The notes under the pieces are model-generated. The model ran no database searches. It was not told the origin of the DNA and was given only the letters and a program-made list of their open reading frames with translations. From NCBI RefSeq assembly GCF_000016645.1, contig NC_009441.1:3348001-3412000 (forward strand): 64,000 nucleotides of DNA. Direction: 5' to 3'. The first letter of the stretch is position 1; the number at the start of each line of letters is the position of its first letter. Of this stretch, positions 5,648-52,091 are shown one piece after another. This DNA is from Flavobacterium johnsoniae UW101 (GTDB lineage: Bacteria; Bacteroidota; Bacteroidia; Flavobacteriales; Flavobacteriaceae). A program made the translations under genes and the position numbers.

Positions 5648-5722
5648 GGGCGATTAGCTCAGCTGGTTCAGAGCACCTCGTTTACACCGAGGGGGTCGGG
5701 GGTTCGAACCCCTCATCGCCCA
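5648..5722 (+). tRNA. tRNA-Val (anticodon UAC), copy 1
   Basis: A 75-base cloverleaf can be folded by eye. The acceptor stem is GGGCGAT with ATCGCCC, the D stem GCTC with GAGC, the anticodon stem CCTCG with CGAGG around loop TTTACAC (anticodon TAC), and the T stem GGGGG with CCCTC around TTCGAAC. The discriminator base is A and no CCA end is encoded. It has its own promoter and terminator and is a single-gene unit. The unit is repeated almost base for base at 6040-6228. Confidence 0.95.
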
Positions 5723-5731
5723 CAAAATTCC

Positions 5732-6106: not shown

Positions 6107-6181
6107 GGGCGATTAGCTCAGCTGGTTCAGAGCACCTCGTTTACACCGAGGGGGTCGGGGGTTCGAACCCCTCATCGCCCA
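6107..6181 (+). tRNA. tRNA-Val (anticodon UAC), copy 2
   Basis: The mature 75-base sequence is identical to copy 1, with the same TTTACAC anticodon loop and A discriminator. The flanks are also shared: the leader, promoter and terminator match closely. The pair therefore arose by duplication of a whole transcription unit of about 200 bp rather than of the tRNA alone. Confidence 0.95.
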
Positions 6182-6190
6182 CAAAATTCC

Positions 6191-45111: not shown

Positions 45112-46581
45112 TTATCCAATTTTTTTCATTGCTGTCATAGACTCACGTAACCAGGCTCCTACTTCTTCGATAGGGTGCTGACGAATTTCTTTGTTAACAG
45201 CAATTAATACCGTATTATCTACTCCATTTGAAGTTGAGAATGGTTTACCAATAATGTTAGTTTCTACTTTTTTCATGAATTCAGTCAATAATGGCTTACA
45301 AGCATGATCAAATAAATAACATCCGTACTCAGCAGTATCAGAAATTACACGGTTCATTTCGAATAATTTCTTTCTAGCGATAGTATTAGCAATTAATGGT
45401 AATTCGTGTAATGACTCGTAGTAAGCAGATTCTTCGATGATACCAGCTTCTGTCATAGTTTCAAAAGCTAATTCAACACCCGCTTTTACCATAGCAATCA
45501 TTAATACTCCGTTATCAAAATATTCCTGCTCAGAGATTGGAGCTTCTTGCGGCGCTGTTTTTTCGAAGTTAGTTTCTCCTGTTGCAGCTCTCCATTTTAA
45601 TAAGTTAACATCGTCGTTAGCCCAGTCGATCATCATAGTTCTTGAGAATTCTCCAGAAATAATATCGTCTTGGTGTTTTTGGAATAACGGACGCATGATG
45701 TCTTTTAATTCTTCTGCTAATTCGTAAGCTTCAATTTTAGAAGGATTATTTAAACGATCCATCATGTTTGTAATACCACCATGTTTCAAAGCTTCAGTGA
45801 TAGTTTCCCATCCATATTGAATTAATTTTGAAGCATAAGCAGCATCGATTCCTTTTTCAACCATTTTATCAAAGCATAAAATAGATCCAGTTTGAAGCAA
45901 TCCGCAAAGAATTGTCTGCTCACCCATTAAATCTGATTTTACTTCAGCTACGAAAGATGATCTTAAAACTCCTGCTTTGTGTCCTCCAGTTGCTACAGCG
46001 TAAGCTTTTGCCTGATCTAAACCAAATCCGTTTGGATCGTTTTCTGGGTGAACTGCAATAAGTGTTGGCACACCAAATCCTCTTTTGTACTCTTCACGAA
46101 CCTCAGAACCAGGACATTTAGGAGCACACATAATTACTGTAATATCTTTACGAATCTGCATTCCTTCTTCAACAATGTTGAAACCGTGAGAATAAGCTAA
46201 AGTTGATCCTTGTTTCATTAATGGCATAATAGCATTAACTACAGAAGTATGCTGTTTATCCGGAGTAAGGTTACAAACTAAATCAGCTGTTGGAATCAAC
46301 TCTTCATAAGTACCTACTTTAAACCCGTTTTCAGTTGCATTTTTATATGAAGCTCTCTTTTCTGCAATTGCATCTGCACGCAAAGCATAAGAAATATCTA
46401 AACCTGAATCTCTCATGTTTAAACCTTGATTCAAACCTTGTGCACCACAACCTACAATGACAACTTTTTTACCAGCTAATGCTGAAATTCCGTCTGCAAA
46501 TTCTGATTGCTCCATAAATTCGCAAACTCCTAGTTGCTCTAATTGTAATCTAAGTGGTAGTGTGTTGAAATAATTTGCCAT
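45112..46581 (-). CDS. ilvC: Ketol-acid reductoisomerase (class II)
   Basis: A 489-residue class II enzyme; the extended C-terminal knotted domain is what makes it longer than the 330-residue class I. It converts acetolactate or acetohydroxybutyrate, with NADPH and magnesium, to dihydroxyacids for valine, leucine and isoleucine. The Rossmann motif [21 protein letters not shown] is near the N-terminus, with [19 protein letters not shown] following, and the metal-binding [15 protein letters not shown] in the core. It is the last gene of the ilv operon, following ilvN by 78 bases. Confidence 0.97.
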
Positions 46582-46659: not shown

Positions 46660-47181
46660 TTATTTGAATGTTTCCAGTAATGCTGAAATTTCCATTTTTT
46701 GCTTAGAAACTGAAATTCTGCCCGAACGTACAAACTGCATAATACCATAAGGCTTGAACTTTTTGTATAATTCTTCAATTTCAGAACGTCTTCCAGATTT
46801 TGAAATCACGAAAAAATCTCTTGAAACCGTTACAATTGTAGACTGGCTTTCTTTGATGATATTTTGAATTTGTTTTTCATCAAACAATAAGCTCGAAGCG
46901 ATTTTAAAAAGTGCATTTTCAAGAAAAATTGTTTCTTCATCTGTATGGTAAAATGCTTTTATAACTTCAATTTGCTTTTCGATCTGGCCTACAATATTCT
47001 GAACCCATTTTTCAGTTGTATTTACTACAATAATAAATCTAGAAACATTTTCTATTTCTGATTCTGAAACATTTAGACTTAATATATTAATGTGACGCTT
47101 TAAGAATATTCCAGATATTCTATTTAACAAGCCTACGTTATTTTCTGAGTATACCGATATGGTAAATGTTTTCTCTTCCAT
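46660..47181 (-). CDS. ilvN: Acetolactate synthase small (regulatory) subunit
   Basis: A 173-residue regulatory subunit. An ACT domain (ISVYSENNVGLLNRISGIFLKRHINILSLNVSES) at the N-terminus binds valine, and a C-terminal domain ends KFKPYGIMQFVRSGRISVSK. It binds the IlvB catalytic subunit, raises its activity and confers feedback inhibition. It lies between ilvB (gap of 90 bases, mostly a GTTTCAGG palindrome) and ilvC. Confidence 0.95.
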   Translation of the reverse strand: MEEKTFTISVYSENNVGLLNRISGIFLKRHINILSLNVSESEIENVSRFIIVVNTTEKWVQNIVGQIEKQIEVIKAFYHTDEETIFLENALFKIASSLLFDEKQIQNIIKESQSTIVTVSRDFFVISKSGRRSEIEELYKKFKPYGIMQFVRSGRISVSKQKMEISALLETFK

Positions 47182-47271: not shown

Positions 47272-48966
47272 TTAACTTAATCTAATTTCTGAAACACACG
47301 CTCCGGTTGGAATCATTGGGAAAACGTTGTTTTCTTTTTCCACCATAACTTCTAAGAAATAAGAATCTTTTGAAGCCAGCATTTCTGCAACAGCAGCATC
47401 TAAATCTTCTCGCTGTGTTACTTTTTTAGATTTAATATGATATCCTTCGGCAATGGCAACAAAATTTGGATTAATCATTTTTGTTGAAGCGTATCTGTTA
47501 TCAAAGAACAATTCCTGCCATTGACGTACCATTCCTAAAAACTCATTATTTAGAATTACAATTTTTACAGGAACCTGAGTCTGAAAAATCGTTCCTAATT
47601 CCTGAATTGTCATCTGAAAACCTCCATCGCCAATAATAGCAACAACTTCACGGTCTGGTCTTCCCATTTTAGCTCCAATTGCAGCCGGAAGCGCAAATCC
47701 CATTGTTCCTAATCCGCCAGAAGTAATATTACTTTTTGTTGAATTGAATTTTGCATAACGGCAGGCAAACATTTGATGCTGTCCTACGTCTGAAACTATA
47801 ATTGCATCACCTTTTGAGTGTTTGTTAATCATTTCAATAGTTTCTCCCATCGAAAGACCAGCTGATGATGGATTTAATTCGTCTTTAATTACCGAATCAA
47901 ATTCAATTTTCGCCAATTCTTTAAATTCATTGTGCCATAAATCGTGTGATTTTGCATCAAGCAGCGGCAATAAAGCAGCTAAAGATTCTTTTACATCACC
48001 TAAAACAGCAATTTCTGTTTTAACGTTTTTATCAACCTCTGCAGGATCAATTTCGAAGTGAATTACTTTTGCCTGTTTTGCATAAGTTTTTAAATTACCC
48101 GTTACACGATCGTCAAAACGCATACCGAAAGCAATTAATACATCACATTCGTTAGTTAATAAGTTTGGTGCATAATTACCGTGCATTCCTAACATACCAA
48201 CATTTAAAGGATGATCTGTTGGCAGAGCCGAAAGTCCTAAAATAGTCCATGCAGCCGGAATTCCTGATTTTTCAAGAACTGCCTTAAATTCAGCTTCAGC
48301 CTGACCTAATATAATTCCCTGACCGAAAACGATAAAAGGTTTTTTAGCACTATTAATTAAGGCTGCAGCTTCGGCAACTTTATCTAAATTTAATTTCGGA
48401 ACCGGATTATAACTTCTAATTCCAGTACATTTTTCATAACTAAAATCAAACTCATCAAACTGAGCATTTTTAGTAATGTCGATTAAAACAGGCCCTGGAC
48501 GTCCAGAACGAGCGATATAAAATGCTTTTGCAATAATTTCAGGAATTTGAGAAGCTTCGGTTACCTGAAAGTTCCATTTTGTAACCGGAGTTGAAATTCC
48601 GATGATATCCGTTTCCTGAAAAGCATCAGATCCTAATAAATGTCTTCCAACTTGTCCTGTAATACAAACCATTGGAGTTGAGTCGATCTGAGCATCTGCA
48701 ATTCCAGTTACAAGATTTGTAGCTCCCGGTCCAGAAGTTGCAATTGCAACACCCACTTTTCCTGTTGCTCTCGCATATCCCTGAGCAGCATGCGTTGCAC
48801 CTTGTTCGTGACGTACTAAAACGTGGTGCAGCTGATCCTGAAATTTATATAATTCGTCGTAAACCGGCATTATAGCTCCTCCCGGATACCCATAAATTAA
48901 GTCTACTCCTTCTTCTAATAAGCATCTAATAACGGCTTCGGCGCCTGATATTCTAATTGTTCCCAT
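47272..48966 (-). CDS. ilvB: Acetolactate synthase large (catalytic) subunit
   Basis: A 564-residue thiamine diphosphate enzyme, normal length. It condenses pyruvate with pyruvate or 2-oxobutyrate. GVDLIYGYPGGAIMPVYDEL and HEQGATHAAQGYARATGKVGVA hold the catalytic Glu; the thiamine motif GDGGFQMTIQELGTIFQTQVPVKIVILNNEFLGMVRQWQ is near the C-terminus. FAD-binding residues are in the middle. It is the second gene of the operon, 63 bases after ilvD. Confidence 0.97.
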   Translation of the reverse strand: MGTIRISGAEAVIRCLLEEGVDLIYGYPGGAIMPVYDELYKFQDQLHHVLVRHEQGATHAAQGYARATGKVGVAIATSGPGATNLVTGIADAQIDSTPMVCITGQVGRHLLGSDAFQETDIIGISTPVTKWNFQVTEASQIPEIIAKAFYIARSGRPGPVLIDITKNAQFDEFDFSYEKCTGIRSYNPVPKLNLDKVAEAAALINSAKKPFIVFGQGIILGQAEAEFKAVLEKSGIPAAWTILGLSALPTDHPLNVGMLGMHGNYAPNLLTNECDVLIAFGMRFDDRVTGNLKTYAKQAKVIHFEIDPAEVDKNVKTEIAVLGDVKESLAALLPLLDAKSHDLWHNEFKELAKIEFDSVIKDELNPSSAGLSMGETIEMINKHSKGDAIIVSDVGQHQMFACRYAKFNSTKSNITSGGLGTMGFALPAAIGAKMGRPDREVVAIIGDGGFQMTIQELGTIFQTQVPVKIVILNNEFLGMVRQWQELFFDNRYASTKMINPNFVAIAEGYHIKSKKVTQREDLDAAVAEMLASKDSYFLEVMVEKENNVFPMIPTGACVSEIRLS

Positions 48967-49029: not shown

Positions 49030-50703
49030 TTAATTATCGGTAACACAGCCTGTTGAAGCACTAGAAACCGATCTTGCGTATTTAAGTAAAACCCCTCTGT
49101 CAACTTTTAGCGCTGGTTGAACCCAAGCCGCTTTACGAGCTGCAAATTCTTCGTCAGATATTTTCAGGTCGATTGTATTTTTTACAGCATCGATAGCAAT
49201 TAAATCTCCATCTTTTACTAGTGCAATACCACCTCCATCATAAGCCTCTGGTGTTACGTGTCCTACCACGAATCCGTGTGAACCTCCGGAGAATCTGCCG
49301 TCTGTAATAAGTGCACAGCTGCTTCCTAATCCTGCACCAATAATGGCAGATGTCGGTTTTAGCATTTCAGGCATTCCCGGACCACCTTTTGGTCCACAAC
49401 CTCTAATGACGACGACATTACCTGGTTTAATCTTTCCGGCCTGCAAGCCTGGAATTACTTCAAATTCCCCTTCAAATACAACAGCTGGTCCTTCGAAATA
49501 TTCCCCTTCTTTTCCGCTGATTTTTGCCACAGCTCCTTCAGAAGCAAGGTTTCCGTATAAAACCTGAATATTTCCTGTTGGTTTTAACGCTTTTTGAATT
49601 TCATGAATTACTTCTTGTCCGTCTTGTAAATCCGGTGTAGAAGCTAAGTTTTCAGCAACTGTTTTTCCAGTTACTGTTAAACAATCTCCGTGGATAAGTC
49701 CCACTTTCAATAAATATTTCATTACACCCGGAATACCTCCCACTTCGTGAATGTCTTCCATCATATATTTACCACTTGGTTTCATATCGGCAAGAACAGG
49801 TGTTCTGTCGTTAATTGCCTGAAAATCATCAAGAGTAATTGTAATACCAACAGAGTGTGCCATTGCAATTAAGTGCATAACTGCGTTTGTAGAACCTCCT
49901 AAAACTGCTACAATTGTAATAGCATTTTCGAAAGCTTTACGAGTCATAATATCTCTTGGCTTAATATCTTTTTCTAATAAAACTTTAATAGCTTCTCCGG
50001 CAGCAATACATTCGTCTCTTTTTTCCTGACTCAAAGCAGGGTTAGAAGAACTGTAAGGCATACTCATACCTAATGCTTCAATTGCAGAAGACATAGTGTT
50101 TGCAGTATACATACCACCGCAGGCACCAGCTCCAGGACAAGCATTTTGAATAACACCTTTAAAATCTTCCGGAGTAATTTCGCCTTTTACTTTTTTTCCT
50201 AAAGCTTCAAAAGCAGAAACGATGTTTAGAGATTCACCTTTCCATTTTCCTGAGTGGATAGATCCTCCATAAACCATCATTGACGGACGGTTTAATCTTC
50301 CCATTGCGATTAATGCTCCAGGCATATTTTTATCGCAGCCAGGAATTGCAATAATACTATCGTACCATTGTGCACCGGCTACAGTTTCAATAGAATCTGC
50401 GATTACATCACGAGAAACTAATGAATAACGCATTCCTTCTGTACCGTTAGAAATTCCGTCACTTACACCAATGGTATTAAAAATAAGTCCGACCAGACCA
50501 GCATCCCAAACACCTTTTTTAACATCTTTTGCTAAATCATTTAAGTGCATATTGCAAGTATTACCATCATAACCCATGCTGACAATACCAACTTGTGCTT
50601 TTTTTAAATCTTCTTCAGTTAAACCAATTCCATACAACATTGCTTGCGCCGCAGGCTGTGTTTGATCTTGAGTGATGGTTTTGCTGTACTTATTTAATTC
50701 CAT
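49030..50703 (-). CDS. ilvD: Dihydroxy-acid dehydratase
   Basis: A 557-residue iron-sulfur dehydratase of normal length. It dehydrates dihydroxyacids to the 2-oxoacids of valine and isoleucine. The cluster-binding and catalytic segments [46 protein letters not shown] and [20 protein letters not shown] are all intact. It is the first structural gene of the ilv operon and lies 29 bases after an intrinsic terminator that ends an Ile/Val-rich leader, so its expression is probably set by attenuation. Confidence 0.97.
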
Positions 50704-50731
50704 TATTGCGTTATTTTTATTTTAATTTTAT

Positions 50732-50766
50732 TCAAAAAAAAACCTTCCAGTATTTGGAAGGTTTAT
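50732..50766 (-). terminator. Attenuator terminator upstream of ilvD
   Basis: On the minus strand AACCTTCCA, a 5-base loop and TGGAAGGTT form a 9-bp stem, followed by nine Ts. It starts about 25 bases after the stop of the leader peptide and ends 29 bases before ilvD. The leader tail GGAACGGT can pair with the ACCTTCC arm as a competing antiterminator with one bulged C. Confidence 0.85.
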
Positions 50767-50787
50767 AATATAGTCTTTCAATTATAT

Positions 50788-50862
50788 TTATACCGTTCCC
50801 GATGCAGATGCGCTAAACACATTGACAACAACGACAGAAGTAATAATAATTGAGATTTGCAT
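50788..50862 (-). CDS. Ile/Val leader peptide of the ilv operon
   Basis: A 24-residue open frame starting MQISIIITSVVVVNVF and ending in a TAA stop at 50788. It contains the codons ATT ATT ATT and GTC GTT GTT GTC: three Ile and four Val in runs, with more Ile and Val on either side. This composition directly before a terminator and ilvD is the mark of an amino acid attenuation leader. CGATGCA at the start codon can pair with TGCATCG near the end of the frame, giving an early stem; a ribosome stalled on Ile or Val codons would break it and free the tail to form the antiterminator. Confidence 0.85.
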   Translation of the reverse strand: MQISIIITSVVVVNVFSASASGTV

Positions 50863-50882
50863 CGCTTATTTTTTTAGTGTTA

Positions 50883-50890
50883 CAAAAGTA
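50883..50890 (-). promoter_or_regulatory. Promoter -7 box of the ilv leader
   Basis: TACTTTTG on the minus strand (50890-50883) matches TAnnTTTG and lies 20 bases before the leader ATG. The -33 position 19 bases upstream reads TTTT rather than TTTG, a weak match. It implies that ilvDBNC has its own start, apart from leuAB. Confidence 0.6.
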
Positions 50891-50972
50891 CAAAAACTTT
50901 AAGAACTAAAAAAATAAAATCTCAACATTTCTAATACTTCTTGTTATTTAATTCATTATTTTAATAAAAAAT

Positions 50973-52091
50973 CTAAACTATTGTCGATTGACCAATCGAA
51001 ACATTATCATTATTAAAATATAATAAGTCATCTTTGCTGAAAATGAAATTGGAAACAAACTCCCCTACTTCATTTGTACCAAATTTTGAATCTGGTTTTA
51101 AATCAACAGTAACAACTTCATATTCAATTGCTTTTTTAACTGCCTGAAAAACTACATTCGCTTCTTTAGTTAATCCAAAATGTTCTAACAAAAGTCCTGC
51201 AGCTAAAATCGAAGCAATTGGATTGGCAATATTTTTTCCTTTTGCTTGTGGATATGAACCATGAATTGGCTCAAACAAAGCATTTTTTTCTCCTAAAGAT
51301 ATTGATGGCAGTAAACCAATAGATCCTGTAATTACGCTGGCTTCATCAGATAAAATATCTCCAAATAAATTCTCAGTTAAAATCACATCAAATTGTTTTG
51401 GATTCAAAATCAGCTGCATTGCTGCGTTATCTACAAATAAAAAGTCCAAAATTACATCTGGATAGCTTTCGCCTACTTTTTGAACCACTTTTCTCCATAA
51501 TCTGGAAGTTTCCAAAACATTTGCTTTGTCTACCATAGTTAACTTCTTGCGTCGGTTTTGTGCCGATTTAAAAGCTAAATGTGCAATTCTCGTTATTTCT
51601 TCTTCAGAATACTCACATAAATCCGAAGCATGTGTGCCTTCATCATTTAATGTTTTTGTACCAAAATAAGCACCGCCGGTTAATTCTCTGAAAATTGTAA
51701 AATCTGCTCCTTCAATAATCTCTCTTTTTAAAGGAGAAGCATCAATTAAAGCCTTAAATGGTTTAATAGGACGAATATTGGCAAACAAACCAAGTTCTTT
51801 TCGAAGTTTTAACAAACCTTGCTCCGGACGAACTTTTGCATTTGGGTTGTTATCGTATTTTGGATCTCCAATAGCACCAAGCAAAACAGCATCAGTATTT
51901 AAACAAAGATTTAAAGTCTGCTCCGGGAGCGGGTTTCCAGTTTTGTCAATAGCGATCGCACCCATGAGTGCTTCTTCAAAAACAAATTCATGATTGTACA
52001 CTTCGCCAATAGCATATAATGCTTTTTTGGCCTGTGCAATAACTTCTGGTCCAATTCCGTCTCCTGGTAAAACTGCTATTTTCAAATTCAT
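50973..52091 (-). CDS. leuB: 3-isopropylmalate dehydrogenase
   Basis: A 372-residue NAD-dependent enzyme. It oxidatively decarboxylates 3-isopropylmalate in leucine synthesis. Family motifs are IAVLPGDGIGPEVIAQA at the N-terminus, RPEQGLLKLRKELGLFANIRPIKPF, FRELTGGAYFG, and LTENLFGDILSDEASVITGSIGLLPS, with the Asp ligands of Mg(II). It is 68 bases after leuA on the same strand, without leuC or leuD between them. Confidence 0.97.
   Translation of the reverse strand: MNLKIAVLPGDGIGPEVIAQAKKALYAIGEVYNHEFVFEEALMGAIAIDKTGNPLPEQTLNLCLNTDAVLLGAIGDPKYDNNPNAKVRPEQGLLKLRKELGLFANIRPIKPFKALIDASPLKREIIEGADFTIFRELTGGAYFGTKTLNDEGTHASDLCEYSEEEITRIAHLAFKSAQNRRKKLTMVDKANVLETSRLWRKVVQKVGESYPDVILDFLFVDNAAMQLILNPKQFDVILTENLFGDILSDEASVITGSIGLLPSISLGEKNALFEPIHGSYPQAKGKNIANPIASILAAGLLLEHFGLTKEANVVFQAVKKAIEYEVVTVDLKPDSKFGTNEVGEFVSNFIFSKDDLLYFNNDNVSIGQSTIV

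Follow-up and report, generated by a model that had tools for sequence, protein, structure and literature searches.

A probable isoleucine/valine leader-peptide attenuator upstream of ilvDBNC in Flavobacterium johnsoniae and its relatives

The ilvDBNC genes of Flavobacterium johnsoniae are very likely controlled by a ribosome-mediated transcription attenuator located between leuB and ilvD, in the 64,000-nucleotide stretch of DNA analysed here (the window). Comparison with related genomes indicates that this leader is very probably a genuine, functional Ile/Val attenuator of the classical kind, and that such leader-peptide attenuators prove to be widespread in a phylum in which they have hardly been described. 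The parts worth following are the depth of the comparison, the codon bias of the leaders and the serial arrays of leaders in relatives.

All features described below lie on the minus strand, where the gene order is leuA-leuB-ilvD-ilvB-ilvN-ilvC. The identities of leuB (50973..52091), ilvD (49030..50703), ilvB (47272-48966), ilvN (46660-47181) and ilvC (45112-46581) were confirmed by NCBIfam, which bears out the ilvDBNC order assumed in the original prediction. The leader sits in the 269-base gap between leuB, the upstream gene, and ilvD, the first gene under the proposed control. It starts with a promoter-like -7 box, TACTTTTG (50883..50890), which we take to be the Bacteroidota-type -7 promoter box of consensus TAnnTTTG; 31 of 32 aligned leaders carry TAnnTTTG. 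This box is followed by a leader ORF of 24 codons, MQISIIITSVVVVNVFSASASGTV and a stop (50788..50862), whose start region is A-rich and without visible Shine-Dalgarno sequence, and an ORF of 20–29 codons is found in 32 distinct Flavobacterium sequences including the window. The putative regulatory codons, as read from the sequence, are ATT ATT ATT for Ile (50842..50850) and GTC GTT GTT GTC for Val (50824..50835), GTC being the rarest Val codon in nearby genes. The Ile codons overlap segment 1 (50837..50853), a stretch that can pair with segment 2; 3′ of the Val codons and still within the ORF lies a small hairpin, ATGTG/CGCAT (hairpin A, 50808..50822). Segment 2, the 5′ arm of the antiterminator (GGGAACGGTATAAATATAATTGA, 50778..50800), includes the stop codon, and segment 3 (TATATTATAAACCTTCC, 50756..50772) is the arm shared with the intrinsic terminator. 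The terminator (segments 3 and 4, 50734..50764) has a nine-T tail and was listed first among 11 terminator-like sites of the 44–54 kb region. Box, 24-codon frame, ATT triplet and the four GTC/GTT codons had all been called beforehand and are present at these coordinates, as is the stem terminator with its T tail, although we count 10 pairs in a stem described as 9 bp; the ATG of ilvD, at 50703, follows about 30 bases on.

In the mechanism that we propose, RNA polymerase would start at TACTTTTG and make the leader RNA, with a ribosome trailing on the 24-codon ORF. When Ile and Val are ample, the ribosome would reach the stop codon and cover GGGAACGGTATAA; segments 3 and 4 could then fold into the terminator, and transcription would stop short of ilvD. 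A shortage of charged Ile- or Val-tRNA would instead hold the ribosome at the ATT or GTC/GTT codons, so that segment 2 would stay open and pair with segment 3, and ilvDBNC would be transcribed past a terminator that could not form. For many relatives it is probable that pairing of the Ile-codon stretch with segment 2 keeps the leader terminating when no ribosome reads it, a step that is uncertain in this genome. Enterobacterial ilvGMEDA and ilvBN leaders have the same anatomy, with the operon's amino acids in the leader peptide, alternative antiterminator and terminator structures and a stop codon near the antiterminator arm. The original appeal to this enterobacterial logic is supported by the conservation, compensatory changes and position described below.

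Ile or Val occupies 10 of the 23 non-initiator codons of the window's leader, and the binomial probability of at least 10 such codons in 23 is about 0.001 at the local composition. This value makes a single sequence only suggestive; the comparison across genomes was decisive. We located ilvD in the best 80 named loci among the matches listed and in 50 of 120 relatives, G014 and G115 being left out of these 50 places; the window's ilvD is 97–98% identical to that of named Flavobacterium loci. In 34 Flavobacterium loci, window included, the leader lies about 160 bases and the T-run about 40 bases before ilvD, and after two identical leaders (L089 and L099) had been dropped, 32 distinct leaders were aligned. 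The runs of Ile/Val codons and the terminator, which the original prediction had proposed to look for across Flavobacterium, are kept in these 32 leaders, as is the reading frame of the putatively translated ORF. Ile and Val make up 328 of their 718 non-initiator codons and Leu 24; in nine nearby genes Ile plus Val amount to 15.1% and Leu to 7.2% of codons. The dominance of Ile/Val and the rarity of Leu match the products of ilvDBNC. The presence of the leader goes together with a leuB-ilvD gap of about 254–277 bases, and it is absent from 10 Flavobacterium loci (L007, L094, L101–L105, L107, L114 and L116) whose ilvD lies at most about 70 bases from leuB or leuA. Nor was a leader found above leuA in the eight of these ten loci followed further upstream (L130–L137, which cover all but L007 and L107); L132 and L137 have weak candidate ORFs there, which lie 650 bases or more from leuA and were left uncounted. 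In the window, the 359 bases upstream of leuA contain no Ile/Val leader, in agreement with the earlier remark that leuA has none.

Compensatory changes support the terminator and hairpin A. Hairpin A is paired in 96.7% of alignment cells, nine of them doubly changed (2.3 in shuffled alignments, 0/500 as high), and slid versions of it reach 10–85% of cells paired with zero to two doubly changed; it may be a polymerase pause signal. The terminator is paired in 97.9% of cells (35–72% when slid), again with nine doubly changed cells versus 2.3 in shuffles. Its arms exchange between CCTTCC/GGAAGG, CCTCCC/GGGAGG and ACTCCC/GGGAGT, all double changes falling at two pairs only, and the number of further pair types was not above that of shuffles for either helix (177/500 for hairpin A, 474/500 for the terminator). 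Because L009, L011, L108 and L110 were out of register in the terminator of the first alignment, we counted terminator pairs on trimmed blocks; every block of the two sets of 18 is found in the leaders, and all 32 leaders are represented. For the other helices, a local MAFFT alignment served.

Judged from the sequence, the antiterminator shares an arm with the terminator. The pairing originally suggested, of GGAACGGT with ACCTTCC around one bulged base, can form, but the helix is longer than had been stated, since an inner helix, TATAAT/ATTATA, continues it beyond the bulged outer part. Its three parts are all paired more often than slid versions: GGAA/TTCC in 88.3% of cells (five doubly changed), GGT/ACC in 83.3% (none) and TATAAT/ATTATA in 82.4% (two), so that the compensatory changes proposed as a check on the antiterminator are there in the terminator and hairpin A and few in the antiterminator itself. 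Swapping segments 2 and 3 among Flavobacterium leaders revealed no coadaptation (7248 of 10,000 permutations as good), and GGGAATGG can pair, with mismatches, to CCTTCC as well as to CCTCCC. Applied to the whole alignment, RNAalifold recovered hairpin A and the terminator and no other helix. It misses the alternative helices because these are mutually exclusive and shift register between clades, and we therefore relied on duplex swaps, forced-unpaired footprints and counts of named pairs.

We modelled the effect of ribosome position on RNA in which segment 3 had been made and segment 4 had not, with an assumed footprint of 14 bases upstream and 15 downstream from the P-site codon. Averaged over the 32 leaders, the modelled probability of the antiterminator outer helix was 0.79 for Ile stalls, 0.78 for Val stalls, 0.34 without a ribosome and 0.00 with a ribosome at the stop codon. 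The zero follows from the position of the stop and from the assumed footprint: in 25 leaders the first base of the antiterminator arm is 11 bases ahead of the stop, in six it coincides with the stop and in one it is 23 bases ahead. Ile stalls exceeded the bare RNA in 31 of 32 leaders and Val stalls in all 32, several of them only slightly. For the window, the modelled value was 0.61–0.97 with the A site at codons 3–18, 0.39 at codon 19 and no more than 0.03 for codon 20 and all later ones up to the stop, which places all Ile/Val codons except the last Val on the antitermination side. In the model, then, a ribosome at the stop covers the antiterminator arm and one stalled at the control codons does not.

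What the leader does when no ribosome reads it is a matter on which two versions of the attenuator differ. An early stem, CGATGCA (50864-50858) with TGCATCG (50806-50800), had been noted in the original prediction; both strands are present and paired in 72.6% of cells over the 32 leaders (11–57% when slid), but a better conserved protector is formed by the Ile-codon stretch TCAATTAT and ATAATTGA, the latter lying 3′ of the stop; it is paired in 88.3% of cells versus 28–55% when slid. This helix has three doubly changed cells, no more than its slid versions. Within 13 representatives, own-species pairing of segments 1 and 2 beat swapped pairing (0 of 20,000 permutations, with relatedness uncontrolled), and in a synonymous-codon control the helix reached values below 0.05 in eight of 32 leaders; for the window the value was 0.18 (not significant), so that the protector has support in part of the relatives and none from the window's own sequence. 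Likewise, the mean antitermination modelled without ribosome was lower than with a resampled upstream part (0.34 versus 0.66; lower in 22 of 32 leaders), while the window's RNA gave 0.71, no lower than its resampled versions (0.67). A terminating default is therefore supported for the group and not for this genome. The latter values would fit a leader without working protector, whose ribosome-free RNA reads through and in which only a ribosome at the stop terminates, and we give this variant a substantial chance, somewhat short of even. Against it stand the high conservation of the core of the protector, the fragility of the window's value (near-identical peptides give 0.03 to 0.89) and the uncertain folding energies of AU-rich RNA.

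The remaining alternatives replace the attenuator itself. On the basis of spacing statistics covering Bacteroidetes among others, ribosomes have been proposed to reinitiate after leader ORFs (PMC4833913), and the leader peptide could accordingly act mainly at translation, by coupling, reinitiation or nascent-chain arrest, rather than on transcription termination. We regard this as very improbable: an intrinsic terminator lies in the 84 bases that separate the end of the leader ORF from ilvD, and the C-terminus of the peptide varies (ASGTV, STNA, EKGLV) while the RNA pairing is preserved.

To gauge the distribution of such leaders, we scanned the regions upstream of ilvD for an ATG-initiated ORF in which 6 of 8 codons are Ile, Leu or Val, with a terminator downstream. 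In a first scan 46 of 128 regions scored, compared with 0 of 384 resampled ones; 32 of the 46 are from Flavobacterium, and the other 14 include loci named Sediminibacterium, Segetibacter, Runella, Lutibacter, Meridianimaribacter, Dokdonia and Saprospiraceae. Among the 128 regions are the copy from the window and L002, a distant paralogue, and L098 was omitted as it has no usable ilvD start; the leaders of L003 and L009 miss the rule and are thus outside the 46, and L083 scored by an overlapping frame and not by its true leader. In a phylum-wide draw, 80 of 198 genomes have this ilvD, and 78 of 81 places were scanned over about 1.5–1.6 kb (L001, L086 and L108 score in the first scan). Here 37 places scored and 41 did not, with no match in 234 resampled or 78 opposite-strand controls. 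The scoring places carry eight family labels and reach beyond the window's class; as the rule counts Leu, a few matches (e.g. L222–L224) are Leu-rich as well as Ile-rich, and some genomes are in both collections (L008 and L099, which are identical, and G089).

The pairing logic extends over the same range. In 46 units chosen by hand to span lineages, the ORF end paired with its own terminator arm at a mean of −15.6 kcal/mol versus −10.3 kcal/mol with swapped arms (0 of 20,000 permutations as good), 39 of the 46 ranking in the top quarter and four in the lower half. The result held without the ten Flavobacterium units (36 units, −16.3 versus −10.3) and was the same when overlapping stretches (17 units) were removed; for the window's own unit, which ranks 22 of 46, antiterminator and terminator show no special match. 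These counts bear on the reading that a plain terminator closing leuAB transcripts happens to lie beside an unrelated, Ile/Val-rich chance ORF. An operon is indeed present upstream, and one such ORF on its own would not be wildly improbable, but ORF, box and terminator co-occur in the 32 distinct leaders and such units recur across the phylum with no matches in controls, and the leader fills the wider gap where it occurs and is missing from the tight-gap loci, leaving this reading a minimal probability. A metabolite-binding riboswitch, T-box or protein-binding leader with an incidental ORF is just as improbable, for although the leader RNA is structured, conserved and endowed with a terminator, its conservation tracks the Ile/Val codons and no Rfam family reached its gathering score in 50690-50960, the only matches at gathering in the window being two tRNAs. 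The best of the weaker Rfam matches was Phe_leader at 50734-50786, where the terminator lies; with 32 bits, and 55 required, it was rejected.

In several relatives the leaders are multiplied. Locus L138 (genome G009) has a TACTTTTG box followed by three leader-terminator units before ilvE, MKNLSIIPSIIIVNVIITSARGML, MKTNMNIIISIIIRSSE and MKTNMNIIIISIIIRSSG (L138 4840-5300), that is, one Ile/Val unit and then two Ile-only units that are near copies of each other; TATTTTTG also occurs inside the first unit, so that later promoters are possible. Two units were seen in L140, L144 and L145, at least two in four of nine loci examined, and two in L168, L169 and L208 of the phylum draw (3/78). Another gene separates leaders from ilvD in L138 and, by gene length, in L140, L141 and L145; it is ilvE in L138 and also in L143, from another family. 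L139 has an ilvE ORF and no scoring leader, and L141 has two ORFs and one terminator.

Codon choice in the leaders is biased as well. GTC accounts for 12 of 300 Val codons in the nine nearby genes and for 54 of 159 in the 32 leaders. Measured against long frames of the same locus (34 units with enough flank, counting open frames of 250 codons or more in either orientation, irrespective of gene annotation), GTC is 41 of 101 Val codons in leaders (41%) versus 300 of 3380 (9%), and higher in 28 of 33 units, and Ile codons shift to ATT (165 of 211 versus 2016 of 3622). Bias of this sort is known from attenuation leaders and is explained by selective charging of isoacceptors in the portion consulted of PMC1183508, which also names the enterobacterial ilvGMEDA and ilvBN operons. 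Other possible causes of the GTC bias are RNA pairing and a common ancestry of the GTC-ATT stretch. Two tRNA-Val genes with anticodon TAC lie near each other in the window (5648-5723 and 6107-6182). We tentatively suggest, as a possibility to which we lend rather less than half our belief, that Ile/Val leader attenuators are ancestral for Bacteroidota ilv operons, that GTC was chosen to make a starvation sensor of one tRNA isoacceptor, and that units multiplied to two or three in series in several lineages. If so, serial units would multiply read-through and could require every unit to sense shortage, giving a sharper or logical response. Among the literature matches listed, nothing relevant appeared for duplicated or tandem leader-peptide attenuators with isoleucine, which is no proof of their absence. 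A known tandem case is Salmonella mgtCBR, described in the accessible part of PMC3641672 as having two leader ORFs in one mRNA leader; that system responds to different signals (ATP and proline), for which its authors call it singular, whereas the serial units of the relatives are two or three units of Ile/Val type, each with its own terminator.

Compared with enterobacterial ilv leaders, which the present one resembles in the amino acids of its peptide, in its alternative structures and in the stop near the antiterminator arm, the leader here has Ile and Val as its prevailing residues and little Leu, ilvD is the first controlled gene, the ORF start lacks a visible Shine-Dalgarno sequence and no Rfam family matches at gathering. 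The attenuator of Corynebacterium ilvBNC is alike in that a branched-chain leader ORF controls ilv genes by attenuation, as far as the consulted portions of PMC10272879 and PMC11857589 describe it; phylum and first gene differ, and the comparison covers the leader ORF. To the authors of a 2010 survey, in the part available, ermC was the one leader-peptide system known from beyond Proteobacteria and Actinobacteria until they added their own Firmicutes cases (PMC2965389). In Flavobacterium psychrophilum, the upstream regions of amino-acid operons are already reported to give ‘strong clues’ of leader-peptide attenuation (PMC9723704), and the portion of that paper seen also names 5′ elements of pheA and hisG as conserved in other genera and flavobacterial mRNAs as devoid of Shine-Dalgarno sequences. 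In Bacteroides thetaiotaomicron, leader-like sORFs in long 5′ UTRs have been reported (PMC7366714, in part). Genus or phylum and the proposed mechanism are the same as here, neither main text contains the string ‘ilv’, and the parts consulted have no analysis of anatomy, codons or covariation (PMC9723704, PMC7366714). The original prediction knew of no described example for ilvD in Flavobacterium; for the genus, leader-peptide attenuation had been suggested before. Within the open-access literature, no title or abstract among the matches listed deals with an ilvD attenuator in Flavobacterium. Vitreschak (2004) reportedly mentions Bacteroidetes, and Lopatovskaya (2010) perhaps does too.

Leader attenuation is not unique to ilvD in this genome: hisG, some 3.4 kb outside the window, is preceded by a histidine leader ORF, MISNQLHHHHLHYCSQAMC, and then a terminator (L227, G000:C1:3415900-3416700). 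Taken together, the ilvD leader offers a detailed and comparatively supported amino-acid attenuator in Bacteroidota. As the switch would need a ribosome close behind the polymerase, the leader is a ready test of transcription-translation coupling in flavobacteria, and the GTC bias and serial units lend themselves to tests of the selective-charging theory of control codons, as set out in the part seen of PMC1183508.
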